Shown: positions 45,230 to 62,318 of the stretch, piece by piece
Position numbering within the stretch: position 1 is the first letter of the stretch
Layout of the letters: the number at the start of each line of letters is the position of its first letter
Origin: an uncultured Verrucomicrobiota bacterium
Lineage (GTDB): Bacteria; Verrucomicrobiota; Verrucomicrobiia; Limisphaerales; UBA9464
Assembly (NCBI GenBank): GCA_903916195.1
Contig: CAIWVP010000081.1
Span: 1 to 62,318, forward strand
DNA length: 62,318 nt
Direction: 5' to 3'
Program-made: the position numbers and the translations under genes
The notes under the pieces: generated by a model
Database searches by the model: none
What the model was told of the DNA's origin: nothing
The model's input: only the letters and a program-made list of their open reading frames with translations

Positions 45230-45248
45230 AGAGCCCGCCCCCGACCCG

Positions 45249-45277
45249 GCCGCGCCCGCCACGGGCGCGGCTTTTTT
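45249..45277 (+). terminator. Intrinsic terminator of the mreB-rne gene run
   Basis: A perfect 9-bp GC stem GCCGCGCCC-gccac-GGGCGCGGC followed by six T, about 20 bp after the rne/rng stop. Confidence 0.95.
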
Positions 45278-45514
45278 GTTCCGTCACGGAGGATGCATCG
45301 GCGGATCGGTCGGCGATGGGACCCGTGCGCCGACCTGCTGGCGCGAGGAGCCTCGGGAACGATGCCTGCGCTCTCGGTTCCCGCGGATCCATGCGAAGAT
45401 CTCCGCCTCCCGTGACGGTGGGGCGTTGTCTTCCCGCCCGTCGTGCCGGAGGCCTCGGGGGCGGGAAGACGGCTTTCGCTGGGCAGACCCGCGCCGCGCG
45501 TTCCGTCCAAGGAT

Positions 45515-47776: not shown

Positions 47777-47946
47777 GGGCCGACCGTGACAAACGTCCGC
47801 CGCGCAGCAACCGGCAAAATACAGGGACACGCCGGAGATCGCCCGCAGGGAGGGCCGAAGGCGGGCGCGGAACCAATCGCGAAGATGCTCCACGCGCCGG
47901 CACCGCTACGGCCACTTCCCGGCACCTCCGGCGCGGCCGGGCCAAG

Positions 47947-49185
47947 TCACTTGCCCTTCACGTCGAAGCAGTAGAGCAGCTCCTGGTCGCGGAGGTAGAG
48001 GCGCCCGCCCACGACGACGGGATGCGGCCAGATCCCGCCTTGCGGGTTCCGCTGCGTGCTCAGCGGGTCGAGCTTGAAGCGACCGTGCTCCGTCCAGCCC
48101 TTGGGCGACGCCTCGATCAGCGCGACTTCGCCGGATTTCTCGTCGAGGCAGTACAGCATGCCGTCGGCGTAGTGGATCGCGCCCTTGCCGAAGCCTTTGT
48201 GGCTCCAGATCTCCTTGCCGGTCATCAGATCCTGGCAGACCCAGCCGTTGCCGTCCGAATGGCCGTAGATGTTCCCGTCGACCCGCACCACGCCGCCGTG
48301 ATGGTTCTTCATCACCTTGTTGTTCTCGTAGACGGTCTCGACCGAGTTCCCGTCGCCGGCGATCTTCACCAGCTTGCAGCCCACGCCGTAGCCCGACGTG
48401 GCGTACACGTGGCCGGCGTGCGGGATGACCGTGGGGATGACCGCGACGCGACCGGGGAACTCGGAACGCCAGAGCACTTTCCCGGTCGCCGGATCGACGC
48501 CGAAGAACTGCTTGGTCACCAGTTGCACGACCTGCGGCTTGCCGGCCTGCTGGAAGAGCACGGGCGACGAGTACTGCGCCTCGTCGGTCAGGTCTTTCGT
48601 GCGCCAGACGACGTCGCCGGTGAGCTTGTCGAGCGCGGCCATCGTCCCCTGCGGGCCGCCGGGCGTGCAGAGCAGGTTGCCTCCGACCACGAGCGGCGAT
48701 TCGGTATAGCCCCAGCCTTGGAGCTTCCCGCCGAGGTCGGTGATGAGCGACTTCTGCCAGCGGACCTTGCCATCCTGGGTTGCCGCGCAGATGAGCAGGC
48801 CGTTGCCGCCGACGGCGTAGACGCGATCGCCGTCCACGGTGGGCGTCATGCGCGGGCCGTCGCCCCAGCCGTTCGGATATCGGGACCCGGCAGGAGCGGA
48901 CCACTCCTCCTTGCCGGTCGCGATGTCGATGGCGATGAGCAACTCCTGCTCGCCGCGCAAACCCATGGTGTAGAGGCGGCCGTCGGCGATCGAGAAGCCC
49001 GCGTAGCCGAGGCCGGCGTCCTTGAAGAGCCACACCTGTGCCGGTCCGCCGGCGGGCCAGGTCTTCAGGAGCCCGGTGTCGGGCGAATGGTCATCGCGGG
49101 CGGCGCCGCGCCATTGGGGCCAATCGGCCGCGCACAAGGAGGAGCAACCGACCAGGAGTGCACAGAGGAGGGCAGGGGTCTTCAT
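47947..49185 (-). CDS. PQQ-binding-like beta-propeller repeat protein
   Basis: A 412-residue exported protein with a signal peptide (MKTPALLCALLVGCSSLCA) directly before ADWPQWRGAARDDHSPDTGLLKTWPAGGP, the opening of the large planctomycete and verrucomicrobial PQQ-like propeller family. Blades carry the A-x-D-x-x-TGK-x-x-W docking pattern (IAIDIATGKEEW, LDKLTGDVVW, VDPATGKVLW, CQDLMTGKEIWSH). No catalytic residues of quinoprotein dehydrogenases are evident, so cofactor binding is uncertain. It is 170 bp upstream of the transglutaminase fusion, and a paralogue lies at 56307-57563. Confidence 0.85.
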   Translation of the reverse strand: MKTPALLCALLVGCSSLCAADWPQWRGAARDDHSPDTGLLKTWPAGGPAQVWLFKDAGLGYAGFSIADGRLYTMGLRGEQELLIAIDIATGKEEWSAPAGSRYPNGWGDGPRMTPTVDGDRVYAVGGNGLLICAATQDGKVRWQKSLITDLGGKLQGWGYTESPLVVGGNLLCTPGGPQGTMAALDKLTGDVVWRTKDLTDEAQYSSPVLFQQAGKPQVVQLVTKQFFGVDPATGKVLWRSEFPGRVAVIPTVIPHAGHVYATSGYGVGCKLVKIAGDGNSVETVYENNKVMKNHHGGVVRVDGNIYGHSDGNGWVCQDLMTGKEIWSHKGFGKGAIHYADGMLYCLDEKSGEVALIEASPKGWTEHGRFKLDPLSTQRNPQGGIWPHPVVVGGRLYLRDQELLYCFDVKGK

Positions 49186-49304
49186 CAGATGGGGAGTTTC
49201 GGGTTCGCGGGCAATCTGCTGACGGCGTGGCGGTCGGATTCTTCAAACGGGCAAAGTCACCCGACGCCTCGCAGGCCGGCGCGTCGGAGTCTCGGCCGAA
49301 GGAT

Positions 49305-50060
49305 TCACGGCGCAAGCCGGCGATAGAAGGTCGTCGGCTTCGGTTCGGGCTCGGTGGGCGACCAGATGCGGATGTTGTCCACCTTGCCGGTGTCGTCGAA
49401 CGACCCGAAGCCGATGTAGCCGGTGCCGAACCGCTTGTCCTCGGCGACCATGATGGGCGTCTTCATGTCGTCGAAGAACACCTTCACCGTGCCGTCGCCC
49501 GCGCGGCGCTCCAATCGGACGTGGTGCCACACACCGAGGCCCCAATTTGCTCCGGTCGTGGTCCGGTTCGCGAACTTCAGCCGTGGCGCGCCGTCCACCG
49601 CGAAGACGTTGTGGGCATGGTCGTCGCCCTTGGTGGCGATGTGCGCGTAGTAGAAATGAGACGGGTCCTGCACGCCGAAGAAGAGGCACATGTCGCGGTG
49701 CCCGTACTCCTTGCCCGTCTGGATGAGGTCGGCCTCGAGCACGAAGTCGCCGAAGACGCGGTCCGCGATGAGCGCGATGTTGAGGGGCGAGCGGAAGGCC
49801 GGCTCGTAGCGGCTCTGCTGCGCGAGTTCGAGCGCATGGCTGTTCCCGTCGGCCGAGAACTTCCACGCCGCCGGGTCCGTCATGGCGAAGCTGCGCAACG
49901 CGTCCGCGGAATCGAAATGTTGCTCGTGGACGAGCTTGTATCTGGCCGGGAGCGGCGCGGCGGCGGGCAGGTTGGGCTGGTCGGCGACGAGCGTGCCGGA
50001 AGCGGATAGGGCCGCGATGGCCAGACGGGCTCCAGGCCGGGAGAGGAATCGGGGGGTCAT
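49305..50060 (-). CDS. Exported DUF1080-like (3-keto-disaccharide hydrolase/LamG-type) protein
   Basis: A 251-residue secreted protein with signal MTPRFLSRPGARLAIAALSASG. The body is a concanavalin-like jelly roll: YKLVHEQHFDSADALRSFAMTDPAAWKFSADGNSHALEL, FGDFVLEADLIQTGKEYGHRDMCLFFGVQDPSHFYYAHIATKGD, then WHHVRLERRAGDGTVKVFFDD and IGFGSFDDTGKVDNIRIWSP, matching DUF1080-family strand order. Members act on or bind glycans, including 3-keto-sugar conversions. A link to the neighbouring propeller protein is plausible. The substrate is not evident. Confidence 0.75.
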   Translation of the reverse strand: MTPRFLSRPGARLAIAALSASGTLVADQPNLPAAAPLPARYKLVHEQHFDSADALRSFAMTDPAAWKFSADGNSHALELAQQSRYEPAFRSPLNIALIADRVFGDFVLEADLIQTGKEYGHRDMCLFFGVQDPSHFYYAHIATKGDDHAHNVFAVDGAPRLKFANRTTTGANWGLGVWHHVRLERRAGDGTVKVFFDDMKTPIMVAEDKRFGTGYIGFGSFDDTGKVDNIRIWSPTEPEPKPTTFYRRLAP

Positions 50061-50183
50061 GTGCCGACCGTCCTAATCGCTGCGCGCGGACGAGGCAAGC
50101 GCTCGGACGCAGCCCGACATGCCGGGCGCCGCGCACCACGGCGCTTCCCCCGCGGCGGGGTTCCGCTAGTGTGGCGCCCTCGC

Positions 50184-51095
50184 ATGACCGAATCGCCGAT
50201 CCCATCGCCCGCTCCGCCCGCCCCGCCCGCCGCCTATCGTTCTGGGATGGTCACCGTCGTCGGCCGCACCAACGTCGGCAAATCCACGCTCATCAACGCG
50301 CTGGTCGGCAGCAAGATCTCCATCGTCACCCCGCGTCCTCAGACCACCCGGCACCCGGTCCACGGCATCGTCCATCGCCCGGGCGGCCAGGTGATCTTCG
50401 TGGACACCCCGGGGTTCTTCCAGACGCACAAGAGCTCCTTGGTCGACTCGTTGCACCAGCGCGCGGAGCAGGCGATGCGGGGCATCGACGTCATCCTGCA
50501 TGTCGTGGACCCGGCCCGCGATGTCGGTCCCGAGAACGACATGGTCGCCACCGCCGTGAAGCGCGTGCGCCAACCGCGCATCCTGTGCATCGGCAAGTCC
50601 GACCTGCCCGAGCGGCCTTTCCGCGATGCCTGGCTCCGTTGCGGCGCCGAGGAGTACGACGCCGTGGTCGAGGCCTCGGGCCTGACCGGTGAAGGCTGCG
50701 AGGCGCTGATCGAGGTGTTGCTCGCGCGGATGCCCTTCGGGCCGCAGCTCTATCCGGACGACCAGGTCACCAACACGACGCTCGATTTCCGCGTCGCGGA
50801 GATGATCCGGGAGAAGGTCTATCTCTACACCGGCGAAGAGGTGCCCTACCGCACGCAGGTCGAGGTCGACATCGTCGAGGAGAAGACCGACGCCGAGGGC
50901 AAGCCGGTGCTCCACGTGACCGCCGCCATCGTCACGCCCAACGACCGCTATCAGCGCATGCTCATCGGCGTGGGCGCGCGCAAGGTGAAACAGATCCGCA
51001 TGGCCGCCCAGCGCGAGATCCGCCAGCAACTCGGGAAGAAGGTCGCGCTGGAACTCGACGTGATCGTGGACCGCGAGATGGAAGACCAGCGCTGA
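50184..51095 (+). CDS. era: Era-like GTPase (divergent)
   Basis: A 303-residue GTPase for 30S ribosome assembly. G1 is GRTNVGKST (27-35), G2 TTRHPVHGI, and G3 VDTPGFF. G4 reads GKSD (137-140) instead of NKxD, and G5 is the weak ASGLTGEG. The C-terminal KH domain is recognisable (LHVTAAIVTPNDRYQRMLIGVGARKVKQIRMAAQREIRQQLGKKVALELDVIV), but the GxxG loop reads GVGA. The overall order GTPase-KH and the LFxD-like FGPQLYPDDQVTN linker identify Era. The altered G4 and KH loop suggest changed nucleotide or RNA contacts. ATG start after a short Pro/Ala-rich N-terminus. Confidence 0.87.
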   Translation: MTESPIPSPAPPAPPAAYRSGMVTVVGRTNVGKSTLINALVGSKISIVTPRPQTTRHPVHGIVHRPGGQVIFVDTPGFFQTHKSSLVDSLHQRAEQAMRGIDVILHVVDPARDVGPENDMVATAVKRVRQPRILCIGKSDLPERPFRDAWLRCGAEEYDAVVEASGLTGEGCEALIEVLLARMPFGPQLYPDDQVTNTTLDFRVAEMIREKVYLYTGEEVPYRTQVEVDIVEEKTDAEGKPVLHVTAAIVTPNDRYQRMLIGVGARKVKQIRMAAQREIRQQLGKKVALELDVIVDREMEDQR

Positions 51096-51113
51096 TCCGC
51101 GGGCCGCGCCCGA

Positions 51114-51347
51114 TCAATGGGAATGCGGTTTGCCCGTGCCGCACATGCCGCAGGAGCTGGGCACGCCGGAGCAGCCGGCGTTGTCCGCGGCACCGCCGCC
51201 CGGGATGCTCGCCGCGAAGGTGGAGAACTTCTTGGAGAGCTTGGCGGAACCGCACCCGGGGCAGGGCGTGCCTTCCCAATGGCTCGAGCGCACCAGCACC
51301 TCGCTGTCGCTTCCGCAGTCGTCGCAATGGAACTCGTAGATCGGCAT
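51114..51347 (-). CDS. FmdB-family zinc ribbon protein
   Basis: A 77-residue protein. MPIYEFHCDDCGSDSEVLVRSS and CPGCGSAKLSKKFSTFAAS give the two CxxC pairs of the FmdB (CxxC_CXXC_SSSS) ribbon. The C-terminus has further cysteines and histidines (CGMCGTGKPHSH), which may bind metal. Once proposed as regulators of formamidase; the function is not established. It is convergent with era, 18 bp apart. Confidence 0.85.
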   Translation of the reverse strand: MPIYEFHCDDCGSDSEVLVRSSHWEGTPCPGCGSAKLSKKFSTFAASIPGGGAADNAGCSGVPSSCGMCGTGKPHSH

Positions 51348-51439
51348 GGGCGGGAGGTTAGCGGGTGCCCGTGTCCTCGCAAAGCCCCGCATCGGCAGGA
51401 CGTGGGACGTGGGACGCGAGAAGGACGATCGGTCCCGCG

Positions 51440-52381
51440 TCAGAACTTCTCGGGCACGCCTTCTTCGAGCACGCGCAGATGTTGGGTGAGGCGTTGCGCC
51501 TCGGCGAGCTCGCGCAGCCAGCGCTCCGGTTCGTCCATCGCCTCGAAGCTCAGCTTGAAGGTGCCGAAGTGCATCGGCACGAGCCATTCGGCGCCGAGGT
51601 CGCGGAAGGCCTTCACCGCTTCGTCGGGACCCATGTGCGTGTGACGGAACGAATCGGGGAAGTAGGCACCGATGGGCAACAGCGCGATCTCGGGACGCAT
51701 CCGTTGGCCGATCTCCTCGAAGCCTTCGAAATAGCCGGAATCGCCGGCGTGGTAGACGCGGCGCCCGTGGTGTTCGAGCACGAAGCCGCCCCAGCCGCGG
51801 TGGGCGTCGCGGAGCGTGCGCGCGCCCCAGTGCTTGCCCGGCACGAGCGTCACCTTCCAATCGCCGTGCCCGAAGGTCTCCCACCACTGCAACTCGACGA
51901 TGCGCTCGAAGCCGAGCCGCTTCGCCAGCGACCCGCAGCCCCACGGCATGACCGCGATCTTGGGCGACGGCAGCTTGCGCAGGCTCGGCTTGTGGAAGTG
52001 GTCGAAGTGGGCGTGCGTGAGCAGCACCAGATCGATCGGAGGCAGGTCCTTCACGCTCAGGCCGGGCCGCTTGAGCCGCTTCAGCAGGAAGAGCCAGTTC
52101 GCGAAGTTCGGGTCGATGATGACGTTGAGGTCGGGGAACTGGAGCAGGAACGACGCGTGGCCGATCCAGGTCAGCGCGAGCTCGGAGTCCTTCAGCACCG
52201 GGAAGCTCGGCACCTTCGTCGAACCGCTGCGCGGGGTGAAGAACGCCTTCCACACCATCTCGCGGAAGAACGTGCGCGGGTTGAAATGGTTGCTCGGCGT
52301 GAGCTCCTTGAACGACCGAGGGATCCGTCGTCGGGCAGGCCGCCCGGGTTCGGGGAGCGGAGTTCCGGGACGATGGCTCAC
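51440..52381 (-). CDS. MBL-fold metallo-hydrolase (UlaG/NAPE-PLD-like)
   Basis: A 313-residue metallo-beta-lactamase-fold hydrolase. LALTWIGHASFLLQFPDLNVIIDPNF opens the fold, LLTHAHFDHFHKPSL is the HxHxDH metal motif, WWETFGHGDWKVTLVPGKHWGAR and YHAGDSGYFEGF (metal Asp and Gly) follow, and MHFGTFKLSFE ends it. This pattern is typical of NAPE-PLD/RomA-like and UlaG-like phosphodiesterases and lactonases. No ATG fits; the GTG at 52381 (VSHRPGTPL) is the likely start. The longer open frame overlaps the transposase remnant and cannot be genuine. Confidence 0.82.
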   Translation of the reverse strand: MSHRPGTPLPEPGRPARRRIPRSFKELTPSNHFNPRTFFREMVWKAFFTPRSGSTKVPSFPVLKDSELALTWIGHASFLLQFPDLNVIIDPNFANWLFLLKRLKRPGLSVKDLPPIDLVLLTHAHFDHFHKPSLRKLPSPKIAVMPWGCGSLAKRLGFERIVELQWWETFGHGDWKVTLVPGKHWGARTLRDAHRGWGGFVLEHHGRRVYHAGDSGYFEGFEEIGQRMRPEIALLPIGAYFPDSFRHTHMGPDEAVKAFRDLGAEWLVPMHFGTFKLSFEAMDEPERWLRELAEAQRLTQHLRVLEEGVPEKF

Positions 52382-52659
52382 GGCCGGACTATGGGGGTTC
52401 CCGCGGGCCCTGCAAAGGTGGCCGACACTTTTCCCGAGAGGTGCCGAGACCGCATGGGTCGGCAAGATCGGCGAAAAGACGCGGCCGTCCCGGGGAAGAG
52501 CTTGCGCCAGGCGAAGAGCAGTCCTTCGCCCAGACCGAGTTCCTTGGAGACGACCGCCGCCGACTTGCCGCTGGCCAGCCACTTGCGGACGGCCTCGCGC
52601 TTGAAGGTTGGGTCGAACTTGCGGCGGGTCCCGGGAGGAGATTCTTTGATGCGATCCAC
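52378..52659 (-). pseudogene. IS3-type transposase OrfA remnant
   Basis: A 93-residue frame. Residues 11-55 (RRKFDPTFKREAVRKWLASGKSAAVVSKELGLGEGLLFAWRKLF) are the HTH_Tnp_1 domain of IS3-family OrfA proteins. After that the sequence loses similarity and no OrfB (rve integrase) is present. The frame overlaps the start of the MBL-fold gene by 4 bp. It lies within 52416-52867, bounded by related 15-bp inverted repeats, so it is a decayed insertion sequence. Confidence 0.75.
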
Positions 52660-52867
52660 GGTGCTCGATTCCCCTTCCTCACCGTCCGAGAAATCGAAGC
52701 AACCTCAGGGGCCGCGCGGCAGCGCGGCCCCTACCTACGATGGTAGGGACGGGCTGCCGCCCGTCCGTGATTTCTCCCCGCGTCGGCGGGATCGGCAGCG
52801 CGCCGAAGTGAGCCGCAGCCACACGGAGCACTACTCCCCGCCGCTTCCGTCGAAGTGTCCGCCACTT
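52416..52867. mobile_element. Truncated insertion-sequence remnant with inverted-repeat ends
   Basis: AGGTGGCCGACACTT (52416-52430) and the reverse complement of 52853-52867 (AAGTGGCGGACACTT) agree at 13 of 15 positions. The 452-bp segment contains most of the OrfA remnant. It also carries two hairpins: GGGGCCGCGC-ggca-GCGCGGCCCC at 52708-52731 and GGACGGGC-tgcc-GCCCGTCC at 52747-52766. OrfB is absent, so it is not autonomous. Confidence 0.55.
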
Positions 52868-52918
52868 CCAATCACAACCCCGCGGACCGGCAGCCATCGT
52901 TCCTTGGGGGCTCCAAAG

Positions 52919-52950
52919 AAAAAAGCCCGGTTCCAATGAAGGAACCGGGC
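52919..52950 (-). terminator. Intrinsic terminator of the tRNA-Gly gene
   Basis: On the minus strand, GCCCGGTTCC-ttcatt-GGAACCGGGC followed by six T, starting 10 bp after the tRNA CCA end. Confidence 0.95.
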
Positions 52951-52959
52951 AGGATAAAC

Positions 52960-53036
52960 TGGAGCGAGTGAAGGGATTCGAACCCTCGACATTCACCTTG
53001 GCAAGGTGACGCTCTACCAGGCTGAGCTACACTCGC
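52960..53036 (-). tRNA. tRNA-Gly (GCC)
   Basis: On the minus strand it begins GCGAGTG and ends CACTCGC-T-CCA, giving a 7-bp acceptor stem with CCA encoded. The D arm TAGCTCAGCCTGGTAGAGC and the T arm GAGGGTTCGAATCCCTT are standard. The anticodon stem-loop ACCTTGCCAAGGT has anticodon GCC. It has its own terminator, and an IS remnant lies just beyond it. Confidence 0.97.
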
Positions 53037-53145
53037 AATCGCCGAAGCGGGGCTCTAAATGCGAGAACGGCGGGGTGATTGCAAGCGATGTTTTTGTTCG
53101 GGACCAAAATTCGTCACCTCAGCCCCTACTGTCGACGCCTTCCGG

Positions 53146-53925
53146 CTAGACCCAACCGTTCCAACGGTAGAGGAGCCAGCCGACCTGTTCGTGCGCCCAG
53201 TAGCCGATGAGATCGAAGCCCCGGCTTCGCGGGACGACCCTCCACGAGTCCTTGCCGTCCAAGCCATCGAGGCCGAGGAATTCCGCGCCGGCGGGCATGA
53301 CGTCCAGTCCGGCCTTCCGGAAGACGGCTTCGGCGCGGGCCAAGTGGTAGCCGGAGCTGACCAGCAGGATCCGTCGCCAGCCGTGGGCGTCGGCAAGTTG
53401 TGCGGTCCGCTGGGCTTCTTCCCGCGTGTTCGCGCAGACGCCGAGCAGGTGCAGCTCGCCGACCGGCAGATGCCAGGAGCGGGCCCAAGCGGTGATCAGC
53501 TCGGAATCGGGCCGGCGCTGGCCGTCGGCTTCGTAGAAGCTGCCTCCGAGCACCAACGCCTTGGCGCGTCCGGTCCGGAGGAATTCGAGCGCGAGCAGGA
53601 TCCGGTCGCCCGCCTCGCCCACCCCGAACCGCAGCGGCGACCGCGTCGTGAAACCGTGCGCGCCGCCGAGCATGACCACGGCATCGGCTTTCTCCGGCCA
53701 ACCGCGGACCCGCGGATCGTAGGGGCGTTCCAGGCCGGCCAAGAGCCGCGCCGGGATCTGCGTCCCGCCGACCACTTGGATGAAGAGGAGCAATGTCCCG
53801 GGGAAGATCGAGGCCTTCCATCGCCGGTGGAAAAGATTCCAGAGGGTCGCTGCGAGCAACGCGGCCCAGATGACCCCGATGGGCTGCGCCAGCGCGCCCA
53901 GAGAATCGTACAACGGTTTCATCAC
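53146..53925 (-). CDS. YdcF-family (DUF218) membrane protein
   Basis: A 259-residue protein with two N-terminal hydrophobic segments (about 12-30 and 42-58), then a DUF218 domain: DAVVMLGGAHGFTTRSPLRFGVGEAGDRILLALEFLR, ALVLGGSF, NTREEAQRTAQLADAHGWRRILLVSSGYHLARAEAVFRKAGLDVMPAGAEF. The Ser-x-x-His-hydrophobic block and the ILLVSS motif are typical (SanA/YdcF/ElyC-like), a family linked to envelope integrity. The exact role is unknown. Confidence 0.84.
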   Translation of the reverse strand: MMKPLYDSLGALAQPIGVIWAALLAATLWNLFHRRWKASIFPGTLLLFIQVVGGTQIPARLLAGLERPYDPRVRGWPEKADAVVMLGGAHGFTTRSPLRFGVGEAGDRILLALEFLRTGRAKALVLGGSFYEADGQRRPDSELITAWARSWHLPVGELHLLGVCANTREEAQRTAQLADAHGWRRILLVSSGYHLARAEAVFRKAGLDVMPAGAEFLGLDGLDGKDSWRVVPRSRGFDLIGYWAHEQVGWLLYRWNGWV

Positions 53926-54557
53926 TTCCCGAAGCTAAGCCGGGACGGTGCGCCCGGCCAACCTTGTCTCGGCAGCGGCGATCCGCGGATCCTCGTGCGA
54001 GCCGGGAAGATCGCCGCCTCCAGCGGAGCCCGACGACACTCCCGCGGTACGCGGCTTGTTGGTCAACGACGGGGCGGTGTGCTCCCCGTAGACTCATCCG
54101 GATGCGACGAGAGTTTGCGGGCGTCGGAGCCGCTCCCTGGGACCCATGAAACGACCGAGACACGGTGCGTAACCGATCAAGAAGAAGCTCCACGAGGCGG
54201 CGACCGCCTTGGCCGGCGGCAAGACGGTGGCACCGGTGTCGACGAATGGCTCTGGCCGGGCGAGACCGGATTGCGAGTGGAGGGCCGGTCGGCGGACGCG
54301 TTCGCGGCGGCGATCCGGGAACTGCTCACCGATCCGGCGCGCTGCGCGTCGATGGGCGCGGCGGCGCGGCGGCGCGGAGACGATACCCGCACTTCCGTCC
54401 GGAGGCGTATGTCGGACGGCTGGTCGCGTCGTTCGAACGGGCCTTGGGGTGGGCGGCGAAGTTCGCTCCGGTCGGCCCGAGGAAGTGATCGTCGGACCGG
54501 CTGGGCGCTCCTTGCGGGCACCTCGCGCCAACTCCGCCGTCCGGTGCCGCGACCGCT
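53926..54557. other. Gene-poor stretch holding a glycosyltransferase remnant
   Basis: 632 bp upstream of the YdcF gene. Only the broken glycosyltransferase tail (see 54160-54488) is recognisable. Other open frames are shadows with no family similarity. Confidence 0.5.
54160..54488 (+). pseudogene. Group 1 glycosyltransferase C-terminal remnant
   Basis: Frame 1 encodes VDEWLWPGETGLRVEGRSADAFAAAIRELLTDPARCASMGAAARRR, the nucleotide-sugar-binding C-terminal block of GT4-type glycosyltransferases. The continuation RYPHFRPEAYVGRLVASFERAL is in another frame (+1), and upstream similarity is in a third frame. No N-terminal acceptor domain is found. At least one frameshift and truncation mark this as a dead gene. 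Confidence 0.68.
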
Positions 54558-55961
54558 TCAGCGCGTGACGGTGAAGGTGTAGTCCCAGCGGTTCGACCGC
54601 TTGTTTTTGTCCTTGGGATCCGGGCCCCGCTCGTTGGAAGGAAGCCCGCCGTCGTCGAGGCCGTCCTCTCCGAAGCTGTAGACCACATAGCCCTTGGCCA
54701 ACGCCCGGAATTTCAGCGGCTTCCCGTCCATCAGATCGATGGGCACGGCGGCGAGGAACTGCGGCACCAGTACATCGAGCGTCGGTGGCAGCGCATCGCC
54801 GTGGGCCAACCGCCAGCGTTCGACCGCCATCGCGGTCTGCGCGCAGCGGAGCGTGGTGACCGAGCGGAGCTCTTTGGCCGACGCCATTTCGAAGGCCGGC
54901 AACCCCATCCGTGACATCGGACGCAAGATGAAGCTGCTGCGCTGCGCCTGCAGGCGTCGGACTTCCCGCCCGAATCGTTCCTGCCGGTCCAACATCTCGG
55001 TGCGCGGCCGGGCGCCGGTTTCGATGAGCTCATCCATGCGGTCGAGGTAGTAGGCGCAATCGTGGCCCTTGATCCCGCTCACGATATAAAGTTGAAGGAG
55101 GCTGCCCTGGGCGAACTCCTGCCAACCGCTGGAGGCGTTGGCCGGGACACCTCCGGGTGCCGCCAACAAGGGGAGCAGCCTGCTGGCCGGCATGGTGAAG
55201 TGCTCCAGCGCCAAGCAACGTTCGCCGACAAAGGCCCGCCCGAAATGGTCCGGCGATTCGGCGAGGACGAACGCCTGCTGGAGTTGCTCCAGTTGCGGTC
55301 CGGTCAACGGGGTCCGGGAAAGCACGCCCTCGGCCCCGTCGACGGCGATGGCGTTGTCCGCGATGCGGACCAGATAGCTGATGAGCAAGGGTTCCGCTTC
55401 GAGCGACCGGGCGGCTTTGAGTGAAGCCAGCAGGGCAGTGGTCGCTTGGACCGGATCACCCGTCTCAGCGGCGAAGCGGGCTTCCAAGGTCAACATGCGG
55501 GCGGCTTGTTTGACCGGGCTGAAGTGTGTGGCGAGAGTGTTGGCTGCGCTCCGGAGATCGACCGGGTAGCGGCTGCGCGGCCGGTTCAACGCGGCGTGCA
55601 GACCGGCCAACGGCACGGCGTTGCTCGCGAGTTCCGCGCGCGCGGCGGCAAGCACCGGGGCCGGCCAAGGCACGCCTCGACGCGGATAGCCGGGGCCGAG
55701 ACCCGAGATGGGCAGATTGGTGTCGGTCACCGAACGCCAGCCGCTGATGGCTTCCAACAACGGCGGGGCGGCGTTCTCCGCGTCCGGCACCGCGGGATAG
55801 GAGGCGTCGAGCTCGGCCAAGGTCACCGGCTGTCCGGCGGCCCGATAGCGGGCGAGCCGCTGCTCCAGGTCGCCGGGTTGCCGGACACGCCAGACGATAA
55901 AGGCGGCCAACGCCGCCAAAAGCAGCGCTGCCCACCACCACCGGGCACGGGGAAGTTTCAC
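54558..55961 (-). CDS. Membrane-anchored protein of unknown function
   Basis: With the GTG at 55961 the protein has 467 residues and begins VKLPRARWWWAALLLAALAAFIVWRV, a basic start plus one transmembrane segment. The rest is helical (ALNRPRSRYPVDLRSAANTLATHF, LEARFAAETGDPVQATTALLASLKAARSL, DHFGRAFVGERCLALEHFT). It ends with MAVERWRLAHGDALPPTLDVLVPQFLAAVPIDLMDGKPLKFRALAKGYVVYSFGEDGLDDGG, the tail seen in many verrucomicrobial pseudopilin-adjacent proteins. The open frame extends to 56240, but that part reads through the hairpin repeat, so it is not used. No function can be given. Confidence 0.62.
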   Translation of the reverse strand: MKLPRARWWWAALLLAALAAFIVWRVRQPGDLEQRLARYRAAGQPVTLAELDASYPAVPDAENAAPPLLEAISGWRSVTDTNLPISGLGPGYPRRGVPWPAPVLAAARAELASNAVPLAGLHAALNRPRSRYPVDLRSAANTLATHFSPVKQAARMLTLEARFAAETGDPVQATTALLASLKAARSLEAEPLLISYLVRIADNAIAVDGAEGVLSRTPLTGPQLEQLQQAFVLAESPDHFGRAFVGERCLALEHFTMPASRLLPLLAAPGGVPANASSGWQEFAQGSLLQLYIVSGIKGHDCAYYLDRMDELIETGARPRTEMLDRQERFGREVRRLQAQRSSFILRPMSRMGLPAFEMASAKELRSVTTLRCAQTAMAVERWRLAHGDALPPTLDVLVPQFLAAVPIDLMDGKPLKFRALAKGYVVYSFGEDGLDDGGLPSNERGPDPKDKNKRSNRWDYTFTVTR

Positions 55962-56083
55962 GGCCGTAGAATCGCTCGGGCTCCAAGAAATGTCCGGCGG
56001 AATCGGGGCGCTGGACTCGCTTGGCGTGCCGGTCGTGGAAGTTCCGGTGTCACGCGTCCGCGCCAGTCCTGCCCAATCGAGCT

Positions 56084-56242
56084 GGGTGCGATCAAAAGTG
56101 GCGGACACGGCGGCGAATGTGGCGCAGAGTTGAACTCTGTCGTTTCGCGGATTTGGAATCCGCAGGCGCTGTGGCAGGCGAACGGGTGGGACTTGCCGAC
56201 GCCCCGCCGAGTTCAACTCGGCGCTACATCTGTCCGCCACTT
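56084..56242. repeat. Hairpin-module repeat, copy C
   Basis: Starts with GGGTGCGATCA, followed by AAGTGGCGGACAC. Modules: AGAGTT-GAACTCT, GCGGATT-TGG-AATCCGC and GCCGAGTT-C-AACTCGGC ending GCGCTAC. It lies between the start regions of two divergent genes (54558-55961 and 56307-57563). The inner part is a MITE-like element (separate entry). Confidence 0.85.
56096..56242. mobile_element. 147-bp MITE-like element with perfect 12-bp terminal inverted repeats
   Basis: AAGTGGCGGACA (56096-56107) and TGTCCGCCACTT (56231-56242) are exact reverse complements and bound the hairpin modules. The same ends occur around the IS remnant at 52416-52867 and, in part, at 61918. There is no coding capacity. I could not see a clear target-site duplication. 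Confidence 0.6.
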
Positions 56243-56306
56243 CCGGTCATCCCCAAGCGTGGCTGCCCTATAGCCAGCCTTCGCCGGGCCATGTAAGGTC
56301 GGGCCC

Positions 56307-57563
56307 ATGGAACTCCCCGTGGTCGCTTGCGCGCTTGTTAGCGTGATCGCATTGCCCATTTTCGCCGCGGATTGGTCGAATTGGCGCGGGCCAGACGGCT
56401 TGGGCGTCAGCGCCGACAAGGGGTTCCCGCTCGAGTGGTCGCGGAGCAAGAACGTCGCGTGGACCACCCCGGTCCCGGGCAAAGGCTCCTCGTCGCCGGT
56501 GGTCGCTGGCGACCGCGTCTACGTCACCGCGCAGACCGAGGACACCGGGATGCACGTGATGGCCTTGGACCGGAAGTCCGGCGCGGTGGTCTGGGACCGC
56601 GAGGTGGCGAAGGGCAAGGCGAAGGCGCATCAGTTCCACAACATGGCCACGCCCACGGTGGTGGCGGACCCACGGCATGTGTGGGCGCTCTTCGGCACCG
56701 GCGATCTCGCGTGCGCGGACCGCGACGGCAGGATCGTGTGGCAGCGCCAGCTCGGCAAAGAATACGGCGCCTACAACGCCAACCACGGCTACGGCTCCTC
56801 GCCCATGCTGCTCGACGGCCGTCTCTACGTGGCCTGGATGCACCAAGGGCCGTCCTATCTGCTCGCGGTGGACGCGTCCACGGGCAAGGACGTGTGGAAA
56901 AAGGACCGCGACCACGGCGCGAAGGATGAGGCGAAGGATTCCTACAGCAGCCCGCTCTTCCTGCGTTCCGGCGGACGCAGAGAGGTCGTGCTCGCCGGGG
57001 CGGGCGCGGTGGACGCGTACGACCCGGCCACCGGCGTTCAACGATGGTCTGCGAAGGGATTCGAGGTGCCGCATCCGTACGGCCGCACCATCGCGGGCGC
57101 GACCGCCGGCGAAGGCCTGGTGATCGCCGTGGCGTCGGGTTTCCAGAACCGCGGCCGCACCGTCGCGCTGCGGGCGGGCGGCGAGGGCGACGTGACCACG
57201 AGCCATCGGGCGTGGACGTTCGACAAGTTCTCGCCCGACTGCCCGACCCCGGTGATCCATCGGGGCCTGCTCTTCACCATCCGCGACGATGGCATGGCCT
57301 CCTGCGTGGACCTGAAGACGGGCGAGGCGCATTGGCAGGAGCGGTTGTTCACCGAGAACGTGAAGGTGTCGCCCGTCGCGGCGGACGGCCGCATCTACTT
57401 CACCAGCGGGCAGGGCAACTGCGCGGTGGTGAAGGCGGCGGCGAAGTTCGAGGTGCTCGCGCGCAACGAGCGGGGCGAGGAGACGCTCAGCACCCCGGCG
57501 TTGAGCAACGGGCGGATCTATCTCCGCACCGTGGCCGGCGTCGCCTGCATCGCCCAAAAGTGA
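56307..57563 (+). CDS. PQQ-binding-like beta-propeller repeat protein
   Basis: A 418-residue exported protein with a signal peptide ([20 protein letters not shown]) directly before [25 protein letters not shown], the family's usual start. Blade motifs are [48 protein letters not shown] and [12 protein letters not shown]. Paralogous to 47947-49185 and likewise without identifiable catalytic residues. It begins 64 bp after the MITE-like element and ends 43 bp before the Tat oxidoreductase gene, so the two are probably cotranscribed. Confidence 0.87.
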
Positions 57564-57606
57564 GCTTCGTACCGCCCTGTTCCTTGATTCCGAACCCGAT
57601 TCCGAC

Positions 57607-58944
57607 ATGAAGACCCAGCATCCTTCCCTCTCGCGTCGTCGTTTCCTCGGTGCCGCCACAGCGGCGGCATTGTCGTTCCCGGCCGTGCTGCGCGCGCAAT
57701 CGCCGTCGAAGAAGCTGAACCTGGCGATCATCGGCTGCGGCGGACGCGGCGCGGGTAATCTGGGCGAGGTCGCCGGCGAGAACATCGTGGCCTTGTGCGA
57801 CGTCAACTCCGACAACCTGTCGGCCGCGGCCAAACGCTTCCCGCAGGCGCGGAAGTACGCGGATTTCCGCCGGCTCTACGACGATGCCAAGGACATCGAC
57901 GCGGTGGTGGTGAGCTGCGCCGAGCACACGCACGCCTTCGCCACGCTGCCGGCGCTCCAGCTGCGCAAGCACGTGTACTGCGAGAAGCCGCTGACGCATT
58001 CCGTGTGGGAGGCGCGCGTCATCACCCGGGCCGCGGCCGAGGCGAAGGTGGCGACGCAGATGGGCACGCAGATCCACGCCGGCGAGAACTATCGCCGCGT
58101 GGTCGAACTGGTCCAGGGCGGCGCGATCGGGCCGGTGCACGAGGCCCACGTGTGGGTCGGCCGCGCGTGGGGCCTGCAATCGCCGGAGGCCGCCGCGCGC
58201 AACAAGGACATCGTGTCGGTCCTGGAGCGGCCGAAGGGATCCTCGCCGGTGCCGGCGGCGTTGGACTGGGATCTCTGGCTCGGACCGGCGCCGGAGCGTC
58301 CGTTCCACGAGGTCTATTTTCCCGGACCGAAATGGTATCGCTGGTGGGATTTCGGCGGCGGCACGATGAGCGACCTGGGCAGCCATTGGAACGACCTCCC
58401 CTTCTGGGCGCTCAAGCTGGGGCATCCGCTCACCATCGAGGCGAGCGGGCCGCCTCCGCATCCGGATCTGGCGCCGGCGTCGATGTCCGCGACCTACACC
58501 TACGGCGCGCGCGGCGCGATGCCGCCGGTGAAGCTCACCTGGTACCAGGGCGAGGAGAAACCGGGGCCGTGGCGCGAGGGCAGGATCCCGAAATGGGAGA
58601 GCGGCGTGCTCTTCGAGGGCAGCAAGGGGATGTTGCTCGCCGACTACGGCCGGCTCGCGCTGTTGCCGGAAGCGACCTTCAAGGATTTCCAGCGCCCGGC
58701 GCCGTCGATCCCGGACAGCATCGGCCATCACCAGGAATGGCTGCACGCCTGCAAGACCGGCGCGCCGACGACCTGCAGCTTCGACTACAGCGGTCCGCTC
58801 ACCGAGGCGAACCATCTCGGCAACGTCGCCTACCGCGTGGGCAAGAAGCTGCGCTGGGACCCGGTGAAGCTCGAAGCGACCGGGACGCCCGAGGCCTCGG
58901 CCTTCCTGCGGCGCGAGTACCGCAAAGGCTGGAAGCTGGCGTGA
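57607..58944 (+). CDS. Tat-exported Gfo/Idh/MocA-family oxidoreductase
   Basis: A 445-residue NAD(P)-dependent oxidoreductase with a twin-arginine signal ([22 protein letters not shown]). [19 protein letters not shown] is the NAD motif, [16 protein letters not shown] ends strand two, and [10 protein letters not shown] is the EKP catalytic-loop signature. [27 protein letters not shown] and [16 protein letters not shown] belong to the C-terminal substrate domain, and REYRKGWKL to the end. Closely resembles the enzyme at 15349-16644. Substrate unknown, most likely a sugar or inositol derivative. Confidence 0.9.
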
Positions 58945-58975
58945 CGCGGCGTCCGTTAGAGGCCCGACGCGCGGG

Positions 58976-59027
58976 GCGGACTGGAAAGTCCGCTCTCTTG
59001 GGGAGCCATCCCGGGCCAGAAGGCCCG
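58976..59027. repeat. Two short hairpins between convergent genes
   Basis: GCGGACT-GGAA-AGTCCGC (58976-58993) repeats the tetraloop type of 12802-12819, and CGGGCC-agaa-GGCCCG (59012-59027) lies 18 bp later. They sit between the stop of the Tat oxidoreductase and that of the convergent HEAT protein. A weak TCTCTT follows the first stem on the plus strand, so a terminator role there is possible. Confidence 0.7.
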
Positions 59028-60347
59028 TCACTCGCCGATCTTCGGCAGCGCGAGCTCCACGGCGTCACGGACAAACTGCTCCGGATCTTGGCGTAGCTTG
59101 CGCAACTTTGGCAAAGCGGGGCGCGCGGCGGGACCCATCACACCGAGTCGTCTCGCGGCCTCGGCGCGGACCTCCGCGTTCGGGTTAGCCAAGGCACCGG
59201 TGATCAGCGTCACTTGGGGCCAACCAGTTCCGAAGAGATCAACATCACGCATCGCGAACAGAGCAAAGTGGTTGCTGTCGCTCGCGAGGATGGCTTCCGC
59301 GGCGGCGAAACGTTGCTCGGTCGGCGGCCCTTGGATGAGATGCACCATGCGCAGGCCGTCCAATGCCGCGTATTGGTCAGGCCCTTTGCGCAACCCGACC
59401 GCGCGCAACTCGGGCACGAAGCCGGCGGCATTCACCCCTGAGCGCGCGACCAAGTTCAGTGACAGCCAACGTGTGTGTGCGTCGGTCGAATGGAACCCGA
59501 CCCGGTGCGGCTCAAGGTAAGCCGCGGTGAGCAGACCCGCCCTTCCGAGCCCCGACATCGCACCGATGACCACATTTTGGTCGGGGTCTTGAAGCGCAGG
59601 CCAAAGATTGGTCGCCAGCTCCGGGTTCTGCCGCGCGCGATCGCCAAGGACCGGAAGTATCTCGGAACGTTGATAGGCCGTGATCTTGGGCAGCAACTCG
59701 ACGAACCGCAGGGAGGTCTGATCGCCGTTCGGATCGATTGCTTGGATGGCGTCAGCGAACCGCATCGGGAAATGCTCTGCGCGCTCTAGCAGGCGGAACA
59801 GGAGCGGTAACGCAGGAGCCGCGTTCTCTTGCAGCGCTAGCAAGCCTTGGATGCCGAGGAGGGCATAGTTTTCGCGGCGTGAGCCGGCCAAGCCGATGAG
59901 CTCTGGCAAGACCGGAGTCGCGGTCTTTTTCAGGTCCCACATGATGATCGATAGCGCGGTGTTCAACCGTTGGTCCCGTCGTTTCCAACGCTTCTCAAAC
60001 GGAGACAAAAATTCGTCCAACATCACTTGGAACCATGCGGGGGATCGGCCTTTCCACTTCAGCCGCTCCCAGAAGCCGGCCTCCCATTCGGTCGGCCGAT
60101 CTTGGATGCCCCCTTTGATTGCCGGCCAAAAACGCTCATCACCGATCTGGGCGCGGACTTCGTTGGCATTCAGACGCCCAGCACTCAAGGCCGACTCGAA
60201 GATCAGTTCGAGGTCTTTGGAATCCTCCGACGGCGGTCGCCATCGGTTGAACGCCACCCAAGCGGAGATTCCGAGCGCGATCGGCACCAAGAGCAGCAGC
60301 CACCTTTTCGATGGGCGCTTGGAAAACCGTTGGAGCGACGTGGACAT
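59028..60347 (-). CDS. Membrane-anchored HEAT-repeat protein
   Basis: A 439-residue protein with a basic N-terminus and one transmembrane segment (about 16-33; WLLLLVPIALGISAWVAF), then an unknown charged region and HEAT-type helical repeats from about residue 125, for example VLPELIGLAGSRRENYALLGIQGLLAL, VVIGAMSGLGRAGLL and VRAEAARRLGVMGPAARPALPKLRKL. Same layout as 3065-4255, though sequence similarity looks limited. It starts 6 bp after the ABC ATPase gene on the same strand, which suggests cotranscription. The role is not known. Confidence 0.78.
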   Translation of the reverse strand: MSTSLQRFSKRPSKRWLLLLVPIALGISAWVAFNRWRPPSEDSKDLELIFESALSAGRLNANEVRAQIGDERFWPAIKGGIQDRPTEWEAGFWERLKWKGRSPAWFQVMLDEFLSPFEKRWKRRDQRLNTALSIIMWDLKKTATPVLPELIGLAGSRRENYALLGIQGLLALQENAAPALPLLFRLLERAEHFPMRFADAIQAIDPNGDQTSLRFVELLPKITAYQRSEILPVLGDRARQNPELATNLWPALQDPDQNVVIGAMSGLGRAGLLTAAYLEPHRVGFHSTDAHTRWLSLNLVARSGVNAAGFVPELRAVGLRKGPDQYAALDGLRMVHLIQGPPTEQRFAAAEAILASDSNHFALFAMRDVDLFGTGWPQVTLITGALANPNAEVRAEAARRLGVMGPAARPALPKLRKLRQDPEQFVRDAVELALPKIGE

Positions 60348-60353
60348 GGCTGC

Positions 60354-61844
60354 TCACCCGGCATCCACGCCGGCCATCAGCCGCATCAACGCGGGCTGTG
60401 TGGCCTCGGCGCGGGGGAGCACGCCGGCGACGTGGCCGGCGCGCATCACGAGGATGCTCCGGCTCAGGTTCATCACCTCGGGCAGCTCGCTGGAGATGAC
60501 CAGCAGCGCGAGGCCGGCGCAGGCCAGCTCGTCGAGCAGCTTGTGGATCTCCGCCTTCGCGCCGACATCCACGCCGCGCGTCGGTTCGTCCACGATGAGC
60601 ACGCCGCAATCGCGCGCGACCCATTTGGCGAGGGCGATCTTCTGCTGGTTGCCGCCGCTCAGGCCGGCGATGCCGGATTCCATCGAAGGCGTCTTCACCC
60701 GCAGGCGGTCGGCGTACTTCTGCGCCAGCGCGCGCTCCTCGCCGCGGCGGATGAAGCCGAAGCTCACCAGCTTTCCGAGCGCGGCCAGCGAGGTGTTCTC
60801 GCGGCAGTTCATCGAGAGCACGAGGCCGAGGCGTTTGCGGTCCTCCGGCAACAGCCCGAGACCGGCGGCGAGCGCGGCCTGCACGTCGCCGAGGGGAAGC
60901 TCCTGGCCGCGCACGAAGACGCGTCCTGTCGCGGCCGGATCCAGCCCGAACACCGCCTGCGCGACCTCGCTGCGGCCGGCGCCGACGAGTCCGGCGAACC
61001 CGAGCACCTCGCCCGCGCGCAGCGTGAAGCCCACGTCGCGGAACTTGCCCGGCGACGTCAGCCCCTCGACGCGCAGCATCTCCTCGCCGAGCGGACGGGA
61101 CAGGTGCGCCGGCTGGTGCGAGAGCACCTCGCGGCCGATCATCTGGTGGATCACGCGGTCCTGGTCCGTGCCGGGGATCTTCTCGGTGGCGACATGGCGG
61201 CCGTCGCGCAGCACGGTGATGGCGTCGCACAGACGGAAGATCTCCTCCATGCGGTGCGACACGTAGATCACCGTGATGCCGCGCGCCTTGAGGTCGGCGA
61301 GCAGCTTGAAGAGGTGCTCGCTCTCGGCGATGGACAGCGAGCTGGTCGGCTCGTCGAAGACGATCACCTGGGCGCCGGTGCCGACGGCGGCGGCGATCTG
61401 CACGATCTGTTCCTGTCCGGTGGAGAGCTGGCCGATCGGCTGCGCCACGTCGAACTCCGCGCCGATCTCCGCGAGCATGGCGCGGGCGCGCGCATGCATC
61501 GCGGCGCGGTCCACCCAGCCGGCCTTCGACGGCATGTCGCCGAGGCAGAGGTTCTCGGCGATGGAGAGGTTCGGGCAGAAGGCGAGTTCTTGGTGGACCA
61601 TCGCGATGCCCAAGCGGCGGGCGTGGAGCGGGTCGGTCGGCCGGATGGCCTGGCCCGCGAGGGTCAGCTCGCCGCCGTCCGCGATGTACACGCCGGCGAT
61701 GATCTTCCCGAGCGTGCTCTTGCCGGCGCCGTTCTCGCCCATGAGCGCGTGGCAGCTGCCGCGTTCGACGCTGAAGCTCACGTCGTCGAGCGCCAGCACG
61801 CCGGGGAAACGCTTGGTGATGCCGGAGAAGGTCAGGAAGGACAT
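60354..61844 (-). CDS. Sugar-type ABC transporter ATP-binding protein (RbsA/MglA-like)
   Basis: A 496-residue tandem ATPase energising a carbohydrate importer of the CUT2 family. Domain 1 has MGENGAGKSTL (Walker A), STGQEQIVQIAAA (signature-like) and VIVFDEPTSSLS (Walker B). Domain 2 has a degenerate Walker A (GLVGAGRSEVAQ), LSGGNQQKIALAKW (signature) and VLIVDEPTRGVDVGAKAEIHKLL. This asymmetry is the norm for RbsA/MglA proteins. The permease and binding protein are not in the window; they may lie beyond the right edge. ATG start at MSFLTFSGITKRF. Confidence 0.93.
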   Translation of the reverse strand: MSFLTFSGITKRFPGVLALDDVSFSVERGSCHALMGENGAGKSTLGKIIAGVYIADGGELTLAGQAIRPTDPLHARRLGIAMVHQELAFCPNLSIAENLCLGDMPSKAGWVDRAAMHARARAMLAEIGAEFDVAQPIGQLSTGQEQIVQIAAAVGTGAQVIVFDEPTSSLSIAESEHLFKLLADLKARGITVIYVSHRMEEIFRLCDAITVLRDGRHVATEKIPGTDQDRVIHQMIGREVLSHQPAHLSRPLGEEMLRVEGLTSPGKFRDVGFTLRAGEVLGFAGLVGAGRSEVAQAVFGLDPAATGRVFVRGQELPLGDVQAALAAGLGLLPEDRKRLGLVLSMNCRENTSLAALGKLVSFGFIRRGEERALAQKYADRLRVKTPSMESGIAGLSGGNQQKIALAKWVARDCGVLIVDEPTRGVDVGAKAEIHKLLDELACAGLALLVISSELPEVMNLSRSILVMRAGHVAGVLPRAEATQPALMRLMAGVDAG

Positions 61845-61905
61845 GGGATGGTCGGCGCTAGGTCTAGCCCGGTGCCGGACCGGAGGGAAGCCGCCAAGTG
61901 ACGCT

Positions 61906-62080
61906 GGGTGCGATCGGAGGTGGCGGACACGATGGGCATTTGTAGCGCCGAGTTGAACTCTGCTGTATCGCGGATTTGGAATCCGCAGGCGCTGTGGCAG
62001 GTGAGCGCGTCGGAATCGGCGCAGCCCTGCCGAGTGCAACTCGGCGATACAGCAGGTTTCAAACCTGCGCTACGTCCGCC
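61906..62080. repeat. Hairpin-module repeat, copy D
   Basis: Starts GGGTGCGATCGG, then AGGTGGCGGACAC (matching the MITE end) and GTAGCGC. Modules: CCGAGTT-GAACTCTG (imperfect), GCGGATT-TGG-AATCCGC, GCCGAGT-GCA-ACTCGGC and GCAGGTTT-C-AAACCTGC, ending GCGCTACGTCCGCC. The last 118 bp are identical to copy E. Confidence 0.88.
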
Positions 62081-62165
62081 CGATACGCCCTCCCGCTATG
62101 TCTGCCCGCCAGTCCAAATCGCTCTCTCCGGCAGCGTCACGACGACCGTGACCCGCTCAGTACGC

Positions 62166-62318
62166 GGGTGCGATCGGACGTAGCGCCGAGTTGCACCCGG
62201 CTGTATCGCGGATTTGGAATCCGCAGGCGCTGTGGCAGGTGAGCGCGTCGGAATCGGCGCAGCCCTGCCGAGTGCAACTCGGCGATACAGCAGGTTTCAA
62301 ACCTGCGCTACGTCCGCC
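62166..62318. repeat. Hairpin-module repeat, copy E (reaches the window end)
   Basis: Direct repeat of copy D, about 260 bp to the right. GGGTGCGATCGGAC runs straight into GTAGCGC, so the GTGGCGGACAC segment of copy D is missing. From CTGTATCGC at 62201 it is identical to copy D for 118 bp. The first module GCCGAGT-TGC-ACCCGGC has one mismatch. No gene is seen in 61845-62318. Confidence 0.86.

Follow-up and report, generated by a model that had tools for sequence, protein, structure and literature searches.

The element at positions 56084-56254 of the window, which holds the hairpin repeat (the whole 62,318-nucleotide stretch analysed here, from an uncultured Verrucomicrobiota bacterium) is, with a probability of about 0.9, a MITE of an ISKra4-family IS (prokaryotic Mutator-like, p-MULT 4) with a RAYT-type REP cluster inside. 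Sequence comparison shows the ends of the element, target duplications, an unoccupied site, a preferred kind of target, an IS whose ends are of the same kind and a cargo that also exists independently. Action of the transposase in trans, past or present, is plausible, and we infer that the element captured the REP cluster and not the other way round. The genome of the window (G000) comprises 4,388,266 bases (4.39 Mb); G003, G002 and G004 are congeners.

The window element and its parts are as follows.

56084-56254, no strand: complete non-autonomous MITE of class A (REP cargo), 171 bp; terminal repeats on both sides, alignment with 15 other class-A elements, unoccupied site in G003
56084-56107, + strand: left terminal inverted repeat GGGTGCGATCAAAAGTGGCGGACA; family motif at 167 places in G000, control 0
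56231-56254, - strand: right terminal inverted repeat, reading TGTCCGCCACTTCCGGTCATCCCC on the + strand
56119-56141, + strand: REP hairpin 1, tag and then palindrome; the tag is GTGG in the window copy and GTAG in many copies
56147-56163, no strand: inner perfect hairpin GCGGATT-TGG-AATCCGC
56206-56227, - strand: REP hairpin in opposite orientation, with CTAC at its end
56255-56263, no strand: right target-site copy AAGCGTGGC, which runs on without a break in the unoccupied site of G003

A sequence-only reading of the window had placed the hairpin repeat at 56096-56242, inside a MITE with exact 12-bp ends. Those ends are confirmed (56096-56107 on the + strand, 56231-56242 on the - strand), and the 24-bp repeats, the duplications and the empty site bear out the MITE; the limits of the element are wider, at 56084-56254. 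Each 12-bp end makes up the inner half of a longer terminal inverted repeat of 24 bp, GGGTGCGATCRGAAGTGGCGGACA, whose two arms are complementary at 18 of 24 positions in the window copy. Class-A elements usually measure 190-196 bp, and the window element is a shortened relative with three hairpins left, the fourth hairpin of other copies being missing. The 147-nt stretch from one 12-bp end to the other folds at -49.7 kcal/mol, compared with -29.1 +/- 2.7 for its shuffles (z -7.5).

The ends belong to a large family. The 12-mer occurs 44 times in G000 (reversed control, 1), and GTGCGATCNGAAGTGGCGGACA with up to 3 mismatches is found at 167 places (reversed control, 0), counts far above chance expectation; individual positions were listed for part of these 167 places and likewise for part of the ends found across the order. 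The G000 stretches examined hold 46 facing end pairs within 700 bp, 38 of them shorter than 400 bp; the 8 pairs of at least 400 bp were excluded from the duplication and promoter tests. From loci of G000, G003 and G018 we obtained 179 distinct end contexts, 166 of which lead into interiors matching a complete MITE: 95 of class A (mostly the hairpin repeat), 48 of class B and 23 mixed others; the remaining 13 were unassigned. Ends therefore lead to interiors other than class A in 71 of the 179 contexts. Class letters were set by length and best BLAST hit, so that some short elements of other kinds, few in number, are counted under A, and C is heterogeneous.

Ends with at most 2 mismatches were found 111 times in G000, 16 times in G003 and once in G018 among 58 genomes including the window's own. 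Across the order they are present in 16 of 320 genomes, nine of these outside the window's family, with a maximum of 37 ends in G116; the reversed control was found in 3 of the 320, one match each. Single matches within the window's own family (G018, G303, G306, G313, G315) look like chance or coding sequence. An exact-pattern scan of a genome-contig collection, in which the window's genome is perhaps not included, returned one archaeal match, which we read as chance. At C5:45900-47232 of G000, two inward-facing ends about 1.3 kb apart enclose a gene that resembles bioB in its motifs. No matching duplication was seen by eye at this pair; the ends are thus probably two separate elements, and we rejected the pair as a single element on account of the missing duplication and the enclosed gene.

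The element has the hallmarks of transposition. Among the 38 facing pairs from G000, 13 are flanked by direct repeats of 7-10 bp with at most 1 mismatch (score at least 5.5). When the right flanks were shuffled 1000 times, the number of such pairs averaged 0.5 and never exceeded 4; 25 pairs have no duplication at this threshold. Typical duplications are 8 or 9 bp long (e.g., CCTCCCGA on C91 and CCGATGGCC on C103), and in other families exact 9-bp duplications flank 3 of 4 complete elements. At the window copy itself the duplication is indistinct (score 0.6, none clean), its left target-site copy, ahead of 56084, having diverged. An empty site in a relative, already thought of in the sequence-only reading, exists on G003 C236, where the flanks of the element abut: window 54560-56079 (89%) and 56252-57563 (94%) are joined with 8 bp shared and nothing between. 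This suggests that the target of the window insertion was AAGCGTGGC, or CCCAAGCG if the boundary is shifted by four bases. Given 167 ends against a control of 0, the flanking direct repeats and the unoccupied site in G003, the window element is a real MITE.

The best candidate owner of these ends is likely an ISKra4-family IS. As described in the available part of the survey of this group by Guerillot et al. 2014 (PMC3942029), its members have terminal repeats of 18-39 bp with a terminal C, duplications of 8 or 9 bp and a -35 box at about 16 bp, which some ISs of the group have on both sides. The MITE family shares terminal repeats of 24 bp (GGG...CCC), the duplications given above and a peak of -35 similarity at offset 16 in four flank sets, and the same kind of ends flank a transposase that matches ISKra4. 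The latter lies in G112, from another family of the order (f37): a 1,444-bp IS (L282) with ends GGGTGCGACCTGAAGTGGCGGTCA ... TGACCGCCACTTCCAGTCGCACCC, both 21/24 identical to the MITE consensus, and one uninterrupted frame of 469 codons. This frame matches NF033572, the NCBIfam ISKra4 transposase, over nearly its whole length with E 5.6e-42, at 144 bits, under the NCBI curated cut-off of 205. The next-best profiles are ISLre2 and ISH6, which the accessible text of PMC3942029 places in the same superfamily as ISKra4. A Pfam search with the transposase gave no match. Since the score is under the curated cut-off and Pfam yields no match, the family name rests on the best match together with the traits. 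No target duplication of the G112 IS was seen by eye. On plasmids, 19 records hold relatives of its transposase, all below 60% identity and several annotated as ISKra4 family transposase; the best is from Opitutaceae bacterium TAV5 (42% over 79%, annotated as hypothetical).

Parts of related transposases stand beside such ends elsewhere, among others at L276 and L270. They were found in G281 and G113, and on G000 C184 a 53-residue piece adjoins a degenerate end (64% identity, E 2e-12). The last 25-28 residues are weakly matched in elements on C183 of G000 (E ~0.03) and on C275 (E 0.001) and C324 (E 0.007) of G003, and in class B the C-terminal tail can be made out by eye. The G000 loci that were read revealed no intact ISKra4 transposase gene. 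Two other transposase types were considered as owners and rejected. IS256 (PF00872) has no match in G000 or G003. DDE_Tnp_1 (PF01609) has 6 matches in G000 and 3 in G003, and no MITE-type ends lie within about 1.5 kb at 7 of these 9 loci, nor at the loci inspected in other congeners.

The elements share a target preference at promoters. In some elements of the ISKra4 group, about 16 bp separate the junction from a -35 box, which may lie to either side, as stated in the consulted part of PMC3942029. For 76 flanks of 38 G000 elements, we found the highest mean similarity to TTGACA at offset 16, with 2.20 of 6 bases matching; the best of 300 shuffled flank sets reached 1.83 of 6 at any offset. 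At least 4 of 6 bases match at this offset in 14 of the 76 flanks, compared with 0-6 at other offsets. Offset 16 was again the top in unpaired G000 ends (1.83 over 96 flanks, all-offset mean 1.33), in G003 (2.33, 30 flanks, which may be orthologous to G000 flanks) and in other families (2.67, 33 flanks, which are independent); these further sets excluded L173, 13 congener loci and L277-L280. The -10 signal at the corresponding offset, 39, is faint and differs between sets: it is marginally top in both G000 sets and not in G003 or other families.

The window element sits between two divergent genes, and on its downstream side it faces the following features.

56271-56299, + strand: weak predicted promoter, with TAGCCA (4/6 to TTGACA), a 17-bp spacer and TAAGGT (3/6 to TATAAT)
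56307-57563, + strand: PQQ/beta-propeller protein gene downstream of the element (PF13360, E 3.6e-29)

The hexamer TAGCCA (56271-56276) lies 16 bp outside the end of the element, matching the family-wide peak. On the other side, the longest mechanical frame of the gene at 54558-56240 (- strand) begins inside the MITE, with residues like SAELNSA...RIPNPR; its first ~50 residues are thus probably a repeat-derived artefact, and the true start likely lies downstream.

The cargo is a repeat of its own kind. Its interior order in class A is GTAG-hairpin, hairpin, hairpin, hairpin-CTAC, and it has the marks of REPs: GTAG-tagged palindromes, inverted pairs and many copies. Three REP cores lie on both sides of a RAYT-like gene (L157, G000 C176:24538-25822), which scores 79.1 bits against NF047646, where the cut-off is 80; a neighbouring reading frame presumably encodes a MoxR-type ATPase. 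No end with up to 7 mismatches was found at this locus; at up to 8 mismatches, two of its cores have no end and one scores 8, the threshold, on one side. The cores recovered in G002 (7/7, 9 stretches) and G004 (1/1, 2 stretches) have no end at up to 8 mismatches either. At least one end accompanies 51 of 56 cores in G000 and 3 of 4 in G003, against a background of 1 in 336 stretches of 83 bases; cores with both ends are counted too low where the copy is shortened, as in the window element. Of the cores in G000, 5 were scored as having no end, 3 of them at contig ends and 2 on the RAYT side. Because cores without ends occur in G002, in G004 and beside the RAYT-like gene, the hairpin repeat is an independent REPIN-like element, which is enclosed by ISKra4-type ends in G000 and G003. 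The sequence-only reading had considered that the 12-bp ends might occur in every repeat copy and on no IS, as part of the repeat itself; we find instead cores that lack them, ends that lead to other interiors and an IS that carries them.

Further copies lie in the window itself.

61906-62318, + strand: copy D, with a left end at 61906-61929 and two tandem REP cores at 61943-62074 and 62181-62312, up to the contig end
9010-9366, + strand: two further degenerate class-A copies in tandem

Copy D keeps its left end and a partial right end, as had been read from the sequence, from 61906 onward, and homology to G003 C328 stops at 61901, just ahead of it. Tandem arrays of REP cores with a period of ~235-238 bp are found at C155:8680-9510, C67:13646-14252 and C206:25035-25401 of G000 and at window 61943-62312. 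In units past the first, the left end is reduced to about GGGTGCGATCGGAC, a hint that the arrays arose by a different amplification route.

Class-A copies are mostly uniform. Sixteen aligned copies, from which 5 of 21 elements of unsettled orientation were excluded, have the same arrangement and junctions in 14 cases, those on C206 and C67 being without part of the left arm. This uniformity is best explained by one founding event followed by amplification of the MITE, and it weighs against preferential insertion of REPINs into pre-existing ISKra4 MITEs, with the palindrome as target and no amplification as cargo. The latter remains a minority reading, one that we consider unlikely, with some encouragement from REP dimers known inside long palindromes of two species, as the available part of PMC3733652 describes. 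Insertion of a REPIN into a MITE could nevertheless have been the founding event of each lineage. Across 54 pairs in the 16 class-A copies, covariation comprised 14 compensatory, 41 one-sided and 39 broken cells, which is weak evidence because the copies are related.

Far less probable is a reading in which the unit and its ends together form a RAYT-driven REP/REPIN or TIR element (TIRYT type) that moves as single-stranded DNA and leaves no target duplication. The core is GTAG-tagged and palindromic and flanks a RAYT gene, and long repeats flanking RAYTs have been published (PMC3733652, in the part available). Yet the ends also flank an ISKra4-type transposase and interiors without this core, and they are missing, at up to 7 mismatches, from the RAYT locus. 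Target duplications and the -35 spacing, both observed here, are not expected of IS200/IS605-type transposition.

We give almost no credence to the idea that the local IS3-type element is the source of the ends and mobilises the hairpin repeat in trans. The sequence-only reading had proposed this from a 13/15 inverted match that brackets an OrfA remnant, and the match does exist (52416-52430 / 52853-52867), within the following features.

52498-52707, - strand: IS3-type OrfA remnant (PF01527, E 8.2e-10), whose left end TGAGGTTGCTTCGATTTCTC abuts the class-B MITE
52708-52879, no strand: half of a class-B MITE, with an end at 52856-52879 and an interior as in class-B elements elsewhere
52743-52766: GTAG-tagged hairpin in the class-B MITE half
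52416-52430, + strand: host sequence resembling the inverted repeat by chance (13/15), with one base different at the IS-free syntenic site on G003 C381

Neither arm of the bracket is an IS end. G003 C381 has the left arm at the corresponding place and lacks both the IS remnant and the MITE half; the left arm is therefore host DNA. The right arm ends the class-B MITE, whose interior is identical in kind at many places and carries a GTAG hairpin different from that of class A; a match of G003 C222 to the window ends at 52707. Five OrfA-type copies were found in G000, and whatever their flank they begin alike at TGAGGTTGCTTCGATTTCTC, either unchanged or altered at a few bases. These left ends (TGAGG(T/G)TGGCTTC-like, TGAGGTTGCTTC-like) differ from the 12-bp MITE ends, and OrfA-bearing copies with the latter, which the sequence-only reading had suggested looking for, did not turn up among the five. 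The one rve-domain locus found, C74:4070-4306, has no MITE-type end in the stretch around it (L032, C74:3311-6502); an end on the same contig, at C74:7011-7032, lies about 2 kb from the OrfA, away from the IS left end. Movement of the hairpin repeat in trans by an IS stays plausible, as an IS with these ends exists, and what falls is the IS3-type donor.

IS3 fragments and MITEs are repeatedly nested in G000; at C61:10802-11181, for instance, a mixed-class MITE has an IS3-type left end (TGAGGTTGCTTCG...) inside. Near the class-B MITE half lies a tRNA gene (52963-53036, - strand), which was the only Rfam match in 45000-62318.

Hairpin-bearing MITEs are also found in other families of the order. 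G116 (f37) has 174-bp elements with the same kind of ends, exact 9-bp duplications and hairpins with a sequence of their own; two of these elements were read fully, and the hairpins bear GTAG tags in one and are degenerate in the other. In G112, from the same family and a different genus, a 259-bp element has the duplication TGGTGAATC and a GTAGCCCAC(A/G)GC pair. GTAG hairpins unlike those of the window element are thus found in MITEs from two genera of f37. A 251-bp element of G158 (f52) has hairpins without a tag and no clear duplication.

We propose that, in the window element, a REPIN-like REP cluster (GTAG-hairpin ... hairpin-CTAC) replaces the transposase gene as the interior of an ISKra4-type element, and that an ISKra4-type transposase, perhaps now lost here, would recognise the 24-bp ends in trans. 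Insertion would have duplicated 8-9 bp of the target and left the element about 16 bp upstream of a -35 box; in the window, the site lies between divergent genes, and the weak -35-like hexamer in front of the PQQ-protein gene follows after 16 bp. The short derivatives that spread may have held REP hairpins in at least two families. Present-day movement and an effect on neighbouring promoters are conceivable extensions of this model. Since the ends are those of a family that inserts upstream of promoters, the REP hairpins appear to be carried there by an unrelated transposase. We also raise, tentatively and at less than even odds, a broader scenario: that ISKra4-type MITEs in the order repeatedly took up unrelated GTAG REPINs and delivered their hairpins 16 bp upstream of -35 boxes, as a two-transposase mobile unit by which promoters are seeded with hairpins.

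REP dimers set in longer palindromes are already known, from A. variabilis and H. neapolitanus, genera that we take to be Anabaena and Halothiobacillus. There, as here, REP pairs lie regularly within an outer inverted repeat (PMC3733652). Those palindromes were not found without REPs, and the available part of that paper mentions no transposase, donor or duplications for them, whereas the ends described here carry other interiors, duplicate their target and have an IS. With GTAG REPs/REPINs and RAYTs as presented in the portions consulted of PMC3733652 and PMC3116915, the cargo shares GTAG/CTAC hairpins in opposite orientation and RAYT-flanking copies; it differs in having four hairpins per unit (three in the window), DDE-type ends and target duplications. 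REP hairpins are reported mostly downstream of genes in the same portion of PMC3733652. Like ISKra4-group elements, those described here have ends of similar length with terminal G/C, 8-9-bp duplications and a preferred insertion site, with a -35-like box about 16 bp away to either side (PMC3942029, in part). The window element differs from that group in being non-autonomous, 171 bp long and filled with REP hairpins, and the words "MITE" and "miniature" are absent from the available text of PMC3942029. Other bacterial MITEs, such as MITEAba12 (PMC6382973, in part), are likewise short and noncoding, with terminal repeats and a target duplication; the cargo here is a second mobile repeat family. 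We found no report of REPINs as cargo of ISKra4 MITEs in the literature searched, by titles and the beginnings of abstracts.

These results assign an orphan repeat family to a known family of DDE transposases through several independent traits. They suggest that one mobile repeat, a REPIN, can ride in another, a MITE, and they predict where its hairpins land. If such association is recurrent, it would suggest an explanation of REP hairpins upstream of promoters and would provide a natural series for testing the effect of a promoter-proximal hairpin on transcription.
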